Shown in pieces: positions 25,361-27,237 of a stretch of DNA of 64,000 nt (positions are counted from its first letter, which is position 1; each line of letters starts with the position of its first letter). The translations under genes and the position numbers were made by a program. A model generated the notes under the pieces. The model had not been told where the DNA came from, made no database searches, and worked only from the letters and a program-made list of their open reading frames with translations. The stretch comes from Earliella scabrosa (Eukaryota; Basidiomycota; Agaricomycetes; Polyporales; Polyporaceae): assembly GCA_022605405.1 (NCBI GenBank), contig JABYQQ010000011.1, positions 930,001 to 994,000 of the forward strand, read 5' to 3'.

Positions 25361-27237
25361 TCACTCATGACGATAGTCCCGTGTCATCCAGCGTCCTCCC
25401 TCGCCGCTCTTCACCAAGGTCCAAGAAGCGTCCTTCATGTACTCGCGTTGGTACTCACAGCTGTGCGCTCGACAAGTCGTCACGATGACTCCCTTAGAGT
25501 GCACCGTGCACGCAAGCGATGACAGGGCGCCACAGCTGGGACATTGCAGAGGAAGCTCATGACCCCAAGGTTGAATAGTAGGGTGGGCCCAGACGTACTC
25601 CGCCACGTCTAGCGTCCCCTGCGATCCTGCCACCCCCCTGGTCATGATGACGACCGTCGTGTGCCGGGCCAGGTAGACGGAACTAGCCAGCAGCTCACCG
25701 ATGTGAGTGCGATCGAATCGAGACCCCTCGATGTAAACCTTGTGGACGAACGCTATAAAAAAAGGGACGCTGAGCGCGGCTTGAACCGCCACCGCCCCGA
25801 AGGCCAGCACGCGCTGCACATGCATTCTTGCGCCGCACGTTGGTGAGCGATTGGACGCAAAGAGGCACTCAGACTTGGACTCACCGTTCCCCGATCAATT
25901 TGAGGTCGTTCAGCTTGCCTGGCTTGGCAACCAATGAACCGCAACACAACAGCACCATGGTCACCTCGTGGCGCTGGCCTGCAGTTTGGAGCTTCTGGCA
26001 GATCGTATCGTTGAACCACTGCCACCAGCTCATCAGACTCGCCATGCGGATGGATGACCGGCAGACGCACCTCTTCAAGACTCATCGACGCTGCGTGTTC
26101 ACCGTAAAACAGGTCACCAGAAAGGTCTTCTGAGTGCGTGTATATGAAGAGCAACACGCGGGCGCGTTCGTAACTAGGGGAATGAGTCAGTACCCTATTG
26201 TATGTTAGGCAGGCGGGTTCTCGTACCGCTCTAACAGCGCGAGCTGTCTGTCGGTGGTCGCTTTGAAGCCATCGGCATCCTCGACGCACGTGAAGTTGTA
26301 CGGCGCGTCAACATAGATGAGATCACGAGCACGGGAGCCAGTGAAGTAGGCTTGTAAGGCCGCTTCTACCACCCGAGCTGGCGAGCCCCGGTCGTCGAGA
26401 GTGGCCAGGCGCACGTGCACGATGACGAGTGGTGTGGTGTTCACTCGGGCGTGTTGAGGTCGTCGGCCGCGCACACTGACCTCCATCCAGGTAGGGAGGG
26501 CCGGGATCCTCTTGCCATCGACGTGCTTATAGAGACCCTAGGAGTCGCCTGAGCATCAACACATGCAGAAGCGCGATGCAAGGGAAACGCTCACCCTGTA
26601 CGGCGCCGGGGCTATCTCCCGTCTGTCGGCAGTTACGTGGCACGAAGGGCACGTGTATGACAACGTAGCCAGGACCCCCTTATCGAGGGCAGCCGCCTCG
26701 GGGAGGTGGCACACACAGACAACACGGGCGCAGAGATCACATGCGAGAGTATGGCCGCCATTCTGACACAGGTAACAGTACTTCGGACGCGCTATGAGCA
26801 GTCGTATATGCTCGTAATGACTGCGTCCACTCACCTCGTCGTGGTGATCAAGCTGGACACGAGACTCGTCCGCAGTTGGGCGCGAGGATTCTAGAAGAGA
26901 TGGGAAGACGGTCGCTTTGCGAAGGGGCGAACGACTAAGCACACACTCACCTCGAACGATACCGGGTGTTGACGAGACGGCCCTTTGGCGGGTGGCGCGT
27001 GGAGCCCGTTGCTGGACCACGGCCTTCTTCGAACGAGAGAGACGCGTCGCCAGCGGTTCGTCATCAGAATCAGACGCGGCCCCGACCTGGTCGACCGTCA
27101 CAGAAGGTGTGCGACCAACTTGCAGGACAGCGTGAGCGCAATGGGGGACACGACGGCGAGCAAGACGACTCACGAAGCGGCATGCGGGGCGCCTTTTCTC
27201 CGGTGGACCTGCGTGCAGTCTGTTTGGTGCGCGCCAT
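25361..27237 (-). CDS. histone H3 tail-mimic protein with PHD-like zinc finger and putative His/Cys (CHAT/caspase-like) domain
   Basis: Eight exons give 495 aa with every phase consistent: 27174-27237, 26951-27118, 26835-26890, 26595-26780, 26227-26537, 26071-26173, 25885-26018 and 25361-25826. Residues 1-16 are [16 protein letters not shown]. After Met removal, residues 1-8 equal histone H3 exactly and K14 is kept; K9 is Arg and K18 is Met. A Ser/Arg-rich linker follows. Residues 98-143 form a PHD-like finger: C98-x2-C101, C110-x2-C113, C118, H121 and C140-x2-C143. Residues 268-326 hold YTHSED...GDLFYG and VTMVLLCCG, where H275 and C322 could be a caspase/CHAT-type dyad (inference). The C terminus has WGHELPLQCPSCG and a later cysteine pair, a zinc ribbon. 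Related mushroom proteins are familiar to me as hypothetical; the function is unknown. Confidence 0.85.

Follow-up and report, generated by a model that had tools for sequence, protein, structure and literature searches.

A mushroom gene family that joins a conserved mimic of the histone H3 tail to a PHD-type zinc finger and a domain predicted to be caspase-like, with frequent linkage to KDZ transposases

A gene on contig JABYQQ010000011.1 of the mushroom Earliella scabrosa (Polyporales), within the 64,000-nucleotide stretch analysed here (hereafter the window), encodes a non-histone protein that opens with the N-terminal tail of histone H3. It belongs to a family in which this tail is maintained by purifying selection ahead of a zinc finger of the PHD type and a domain with an invariant His-Cys pair, and many of whose members are linked to a group of KDZ transposases. 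The gene occupies 27237-25361 on the minus strand. A spliced alignment guided by blocks that the paralogues share gives seven exons (27237-27174, 27118-26951, 26890-26595, 26537-26227, 26173-26071, 26018-25885 and 25826-25364, followed by the stop codon at 25363-25361) and a product of 513 amino acids rather than the 495 of an initial annotation made from the sequence. Exon 1 (27174-27237) codes for the 21 residues of the tail mimic and runs from the ATG to CTTC, where GTGAGT marks a phase-1 splice donor at 27173; intron 1 covers 27173-27119, with exon 2 following from 27118. The deposited NCBI model P0002 (C8Q76DRAFT_694785) has the same start codon and first splice, so that the N terminus read from exon 1, and the joining of that exon to 27118 on which the initial annotation depended, are both borne out. 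Beyond that, P0002 (475 amino acids in all) is mis-spliced: its zinc finger lacks the first half and its C terminus is altered, which may be one cause of the family having stayed hidden.

When the 51.7-Mb Earliella genome was searched with the later exons, the finger and the domain downstream of it were found at 13 dispersed loci: three on contig C1 (C1a, C1b, C1c), three on C2 (C2a, C2b, C2c) and one each on C3, C4, C10, C11 (the window gene), C17, C18 and C27. Two weaker finger matches, on C9 (E 0.014) and C13 (E 0.23), are outside this count. Nine of the 13 loci open with MARTKQ. As a DNA pattern, MARTKQ occurs 13 times genome-wide, at these nine loci, in three true H3 genes and at one other site (on C12, MARTKQQNVCL, probably a chance occurrence), against zero occurrences of a reversed control pattern. 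Six residues alone can arise by chance, but chance cannot produce a longer tail ahead of the same domains at locus after locus, and the pattern counts set against the control rule out a chance match as the source of the tail. The N termini at C18 and C27 read MARTKRNATRQ and MAGTQQTARRSCGE, and a profile scan of 3.2-kb pieces detected no tail at C1b or C3.

Three protein searches added seven homologues outside Earliella, from Ganoderma sinense, G. leucocontextum, Dichomitus squalens, Polyporus arcularius, Pleurotus djamor, Suillus variegatus and Lyophyllum shimeji. The initial annotation had proposed looking among fungi for non-histone proteins with this tail and finger, and all seven carry an H3-like tail (which in Suillus follows an ATG inside the deposited model), although each search scored some 8,000 candidates sharing most words and may favour tail keepers, so that seven out of seven is perhaps too high. 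The tail is thus kept in Polyporales, Agaricales and Boletales. The Polyporus model (P0011, 287 amino acids) keeps tail and finger, and most of the caspase-like domain is absent from it. The family count excludes two further matches, CHD5 (P0014, E 3e-3) and P0016 (E 0.33), neither of which is a full-length relative. P0016, a protein of 883 amino acids from another source with precomputed Pfam matches to PF13519 and PF04564, shows a tail-like stretch of 25 residues after its first 35; the protein may be chimeric with an H3 gene, or a further mimic.

How closely is the tail held to H3? We compared 15 tails, comprising eight non-redundant Earliella copies (C18, C27, C1b, C3 and the duplicate C2c being left out) and the seven others. 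Numbered as in H3, A1, R2, T3, K4, Q5, T11, G12 and L20 agree with the histone in every tail; A7, S10 and A15 do so in 14, P16 and R17 in 13, T6 in 12 and R8 in 11. Agreement is rare at K9 (4/15), G13 (3/15), K14 (2/15), K18 and Q19 (1/15 each). K4 is therefore kept with its context and K9, K14 and K18 are mostly changed, in line with the retention of K4 and the changes at K9 and K18 read from the single window gene. Across the nine most distant of twelve protein pairs, 12-16 of 21 tail residues are identical, compared with 15-23% over the rest; the three nearer pairs give 15-16 of 21 and 34-38%. The three most distant homologues keep the tail, although identity elsewhere falls to about 20%. 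For the closest paralogues, C10 and C11, the ratio of non-synonymous to synonymous divergence (dN/dS) is 0.04 in the tail, a value resting on 21 codons; the linker has 0.47, the finger 0.13 and the remainder 0.11. For many other paralogue pairs synonymous divergence is too large to estimate. The tail is a real H3 mimic under purifying selection. Likeness to H3 is confined to it: the family profile aligns with histone H3 from position 1 to about 28 (best E 7.4e-8), the similarity ends near position 30 among the 60 of 173 matches listed, none of the 13 members has a histone family among its Pfam matches at E up to 1, and the region behind the tail is predicted to adopt non-histone folds. The initial annotation was right that this is not a histone gene.

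Behind a variable linker, in which an acidic patch (DSDDEP, residues 38-43; 27054-27071, minus strand) stands out, lies the zinc finger (residues 115-163; 26634-26780, minus strand), with ligand pairs in the order Cx2C, Cx2C, Cx2H, Cx2C. Its Cx2C-x8-Cx2C spacing and GG turn are those of PHDs, and its nearest matches in the PDB by profile similarity are CHD4 (2.7e-7), TRIM24 (4.7e-6) and PHF21A (2e-4), significant values that uphold the earlier description of the finger as PHD-like. The PHDs of CHD4, TRIM24, TRIM33, PHF21A/BHC80 and AIRE read unmodified H3K4. Judged by sequence, then, the finger is akin to those that recognise an unmodified H3 N terminus, and may itself bind one.

The middle domain (residues 202-423; 25634-26462, minus strand, interrupted by introns) is predicted from structure models to fold like caspases and CHAT proteases. 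One His and one Cys column are invariant in eight of eight sequences (His293 at 26136-26134 and Cys340 at 25943-25941 of the window, minus strand) and fall in the models where two core strands end; no overlay of the pair with catalytic residues of a solved structure was seen. In CHAT and caspase peptidases the usual residue pair at the His is HG; here it is HS or HT. The family further differs from SAVED-CHAT, caspases, MALT1 and clostripain in having no match to them at the sequence level, and in its H3-like tail and PHD-type finger. Family models gave one weak match to a C39 peptidase (E 0.14) across the 13 members. A C-terminal segment resembling a zinc ribbon (residues 452-484; 25451-25549, minus strand) is delimited by alignment, its Pfam zinc-ribbon matches being weak and mostly single.

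At four loci (C1a, C1b, C1c and C17) a shared gene lies upstream of the mimic gene on the same strand. Pfam identifies it as a KDZ transposase at C1a (CxC2, 7.5e-29; KDZ, 2.5e-22) and C17 (KDZ, 1.7e-19). The window has its own member, a CxC2-KDZ gene at 46694-50119 on the plus strand (both Pfam domains at 46.7-48.8 kb), about 20 kb from the mimic gene and on the opposite strand; no mimic gene was found directly beside it in the window. Pfam domains were checked at these three loci, and the remaining transposases were assigned by similarity to C1a. Its KDZ segment has 66 matches genome-wide at E 1e-3, ten of them at least 61% identical and the next 42%, and we define the group by identity of at least 61% to C1a over 138 residues. 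Leaving aside the fragment C3 and the duplicate C2c, 11 mimic loci can be scored. Five of the genes (C1a, C1b, C1c, C17, C18) lie downstream of a group KDZ gene and are co-oriented with it, with centres 3.1-5.1 kb apart, and eight have one within 28 kb; a simple binomial for eight of 11 within 30 kb gives P of about 5e-14. Because C10 and C11 are one duplicated block, at most seven of ten cases are independent. The shared transposase sequence stops about 0.35 kb (C1a), 1.9 kb (C1c) and 1.3 kb (C17) before the mimic ATG; at C18 a further open frame on the opposite strand intervenes, and at C10 the transposase is about 22 kb away on the opposite strand. The linked mimic proteins are only 40-62% identical to C1a, which marks the linkage as old rather than a recent block duplication. 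Two of the ten group transposases (C31:17106-17519 and C3:1731681-1732094) have no mimic gene within 60 kb among the listed family matches; the one on C3 sits 67 kb from the C3 mimic fragment.

What might such a protein do? The initial annotation called it a candidate chromatin-mimicry factor, a label that we too can only infer, and suggested that writers, erasers and readers of H3K4 might act on it. Tentatively, and at somewhat less than an even chance, we favour a KDZ-linked chromatin factor in which the H3-like tail and the H3-reader-type finger control a caspase-fold protease, perhaps directed against silencing. Imagine that the initiator Met is removed, which would leave a free H3-like N terminus (ARTKQTA..STG..APR..L). 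Most likely this tail and the protein's own finger would bind each other, in cis or from one copy to another, and so restrain the protease-like domain. The contact would be broken by real H3 tails that are unmodified, or by changes to the mimic tail itself, whether modification (K4 methylation, T3 phosphorylation) or processing, and the released protease would then attack chromatin targets such as H3 tails or a silencing factor. The likely benefit to a transposon-linked gene would be escape from chromatin silencing. We propose a switch because it is the simplest design that uses all the parts, with the caspase-like domain as its output. In its fullest form, in which a mushroom transposon lineage carries a self-regulating chromatin protease whose finger binds either the 20-residue tail or real unmodified H3, and whose release clips H3 tails or a silencing factor so that the element stays active, the proposal is an unlikely one, if far from negligible.

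A number of observations argue against this switch or against one of its parts. The fold match is moderate: the best Foldseek hits reach E 3e-4 and 5e-4 with low template modelling (TM) scores, and unrelated folds come next. Neither Pfam nor NCBIfam matches any of the 13 members to caspases, CHAT or another clan CD family at E up to 1, and a profile of the caspase-like domain returned only weak XIAP matches (E 0.67 and worse). The deposited Polyporus protein is without the stretch that bears the His and Cys. As for the finger, its third pair is C-x2-H where PHDs have H-x2-C, which departs from the C4HC3 ligand order; it falls below the Pfam PHD threshold (PHD is listed for two of the 13 members, with E 0.18 at best), and C2b has Tyr in place of one ligand Cys. 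Neither of two structure models docks the tail on the finger; mean predicted local distance difference test (pLDDT) scores for residues 1-10 are 31 and 34, and the second model renders the finger poorly. Paralogues C18 and C27 have degraded tails yet keep finger and dyad, and if finger binding were all that mattered, conservation as far as L20 would be unneeded. With regard to linkage, four of the 13 loci (C2a, C2b, C2c and C4) have no group KDZ on their contigs, the ends of an element were not found, and divergence from C1a of transposase and mimic correlates across seven loci with a Spearman coefficient of 0.74 at p 0.058, no more than suggestive of the two having diverged together.

Conservation to L20 might be accounted for differently if the free tail were a substrate decoy, titrating or redirecting the host enzymes and readers that act on H3K4, T3 and R2, with the protease-like domain serving as a scaffold or aimed at another target. 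A PHD usually contacts less of the H3 tail than this, whereas enzymes and readers of the whole tail would fit, as would the replacement of K9 in 11 of 15 tails against retention of K4 in all. But a decoy leaves both the H3-reader-type finger in the same protein and the invariant His-Cys pair unexplained, and a protein of low abundance would presumably be a poor titrant of histone enzymes. We consider it rather unlikely.

Expansion and divergence within one genome would also be expected of a host guard, a domesticated immune or allorecognition protease that holds out the H3 tail as bait, so that invader enzymes touching it trip a CHAT-like cell-death protease. There is a precedent of sorts in a fungal CHAT protease that activates a gasdermin in allorecognition (PMC12881547). 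We nonetheless judge a guard improbable, as no NLR or repeat domain is recognised in the 13 members and the KDZ linkage would go unexplained. The end of the conserved block invites another model. Yeast and mammals clip H3 near A21, and the tail could be the protease's own cleavage or inhibitor site, a pseudo-substrate for an enzyme that clips real H3 near L20/A21. The block does end at L20 in 15 of 15 tails, and because the Leu codons differ among Earliella copies it is the residue, rather than the splice site, that is kept. The splice junction nevertheless falls at the same place, and history may explain why the block stops with the exon; to this model, too, we give little credence. Finally, that a fragment of an H3 gene was recently copied or mis-annotated onto unrelated genes is very improbable: the tail does sit on its own small exon and the copies are dispersed, but tail exons differ from the H3 genes on C9 and C4 at 12-27 of 63 nucleotides, four H3 genes (C4, C7, C9 and C20, by eye) have no intron at the tail-exon site and carry theirs elsewhere (distance and intron positions together ruling out a copied host H3 exon), and the tail is kept across three orders.

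Several family loci have been rearranged. C3 is a copy of C18 truncated at its 5' end (99.88% identity over 2,550 bases); there (C3:1663.8-1666.2k) it joins sequence that, by eye, also abuts an interrupted KDZ gene at C1a (L021, about 9300-9800) and is perhaps the end of another repeat, and deposited model P0004 fuses the truncated copy with the adjoining sequence. C2c is a 99.88% duplicate of C2a interrupted by a 4.9-kb long terminal repeat (LTR) element (C2:962300-968750; 4,925 bp, copia-like by eye), whose identical 580-bp LTRs and 5-bp target duplication indicate a recent insertion. Open frames 28% identical to each other adjoin the mimic loci C1b and C18 (L055, 2371-3375; L037, near 1-614), one of them without a Pfam match. 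In the window, a 50-bp repeat of 2.5 copies (27663-27783) lies 0.4-0.5 kb 5' of the start codon, likely in the promoter region, and a 74-bp tandem array lies about 1.1 kb upstream of the gene (28371-29136; 10.4 copies, 94% matches). A matching array occupies the corresponding site at C10 (L024, 6359-6985; 8.5 copies, 92% matches) and none is present in 10-kb pieces of C1a, C1c and C17, so that among the five loci scanned it is not a shared feature. Further 5', an unnamed minus-strand gene (29740-30835), whose longest frame has no Pfam match, was co-duplicated between C10 and C11.

The family stands nearest to histone mimicry and to chromatin genes carried by transposons, and no single known case was found to be alike. 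Most known histone mimics span just a few residues, as do the short motifs of influenza NS1 and of G9a. In BAZ2B a non-histone protein likewise imitates the H3 tail, its histone-mimicking linker acting on its own PHD by lowering H3 binding (PMC5663869). Unlike these three, the mimic described here is a true N terminus covering residues 1-20, conserved between fungal orders and placed beside a protease-like domain. A literature search of titles and abstract openings, thin on subscription journals, turned up no non-histone fungal protein starting with the H3 tail. Turning to transposons, KDZ elements were reportedly first linked with TET/JBP genes in an earlier study. KDZ and other fungal transposons carry TET/JBP dioxygenases (PMC12730594) and VANDAL transposons carry anti-silencing VANC proteins, whose targets in Arabidopsis are often tandem repeats (PMC5735166). 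Both systems pair a DNA transposon with a linked gene that acts, or likely acts, on silencing marks, as the family here may do; the difference is that our linked gene is a tail mimic with a finger and a protease-like domain, and a putative cargo only.

Beyond the single gene first annotated, then, we find a family spread across mushrooms, a predicted caspase/CHAT-like domain and a link to KDZ transposases. Selection has held an N terminus that follows H3 at positions 1-8, 10-12, 15-17 and 20, leaving 9, 13, 14, 18 and 19 free, while the remainder of the protein diverged past easy recognition. Nature has in effect carried out a mutational scan of the H3 tail, one that picks out the residues that some reader or enzyme needs once the other duties of the histone are removed. 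If the tail controls the protease, histone reading would here be joined to caspase-type proteolysis. The KDZ link, if true, would add a new weapon, besides TET/JBP and VANC, to the conflict between transposons and silencing, and would to our knowledge be the first case of a histone-tail mimic carried by a transposon.
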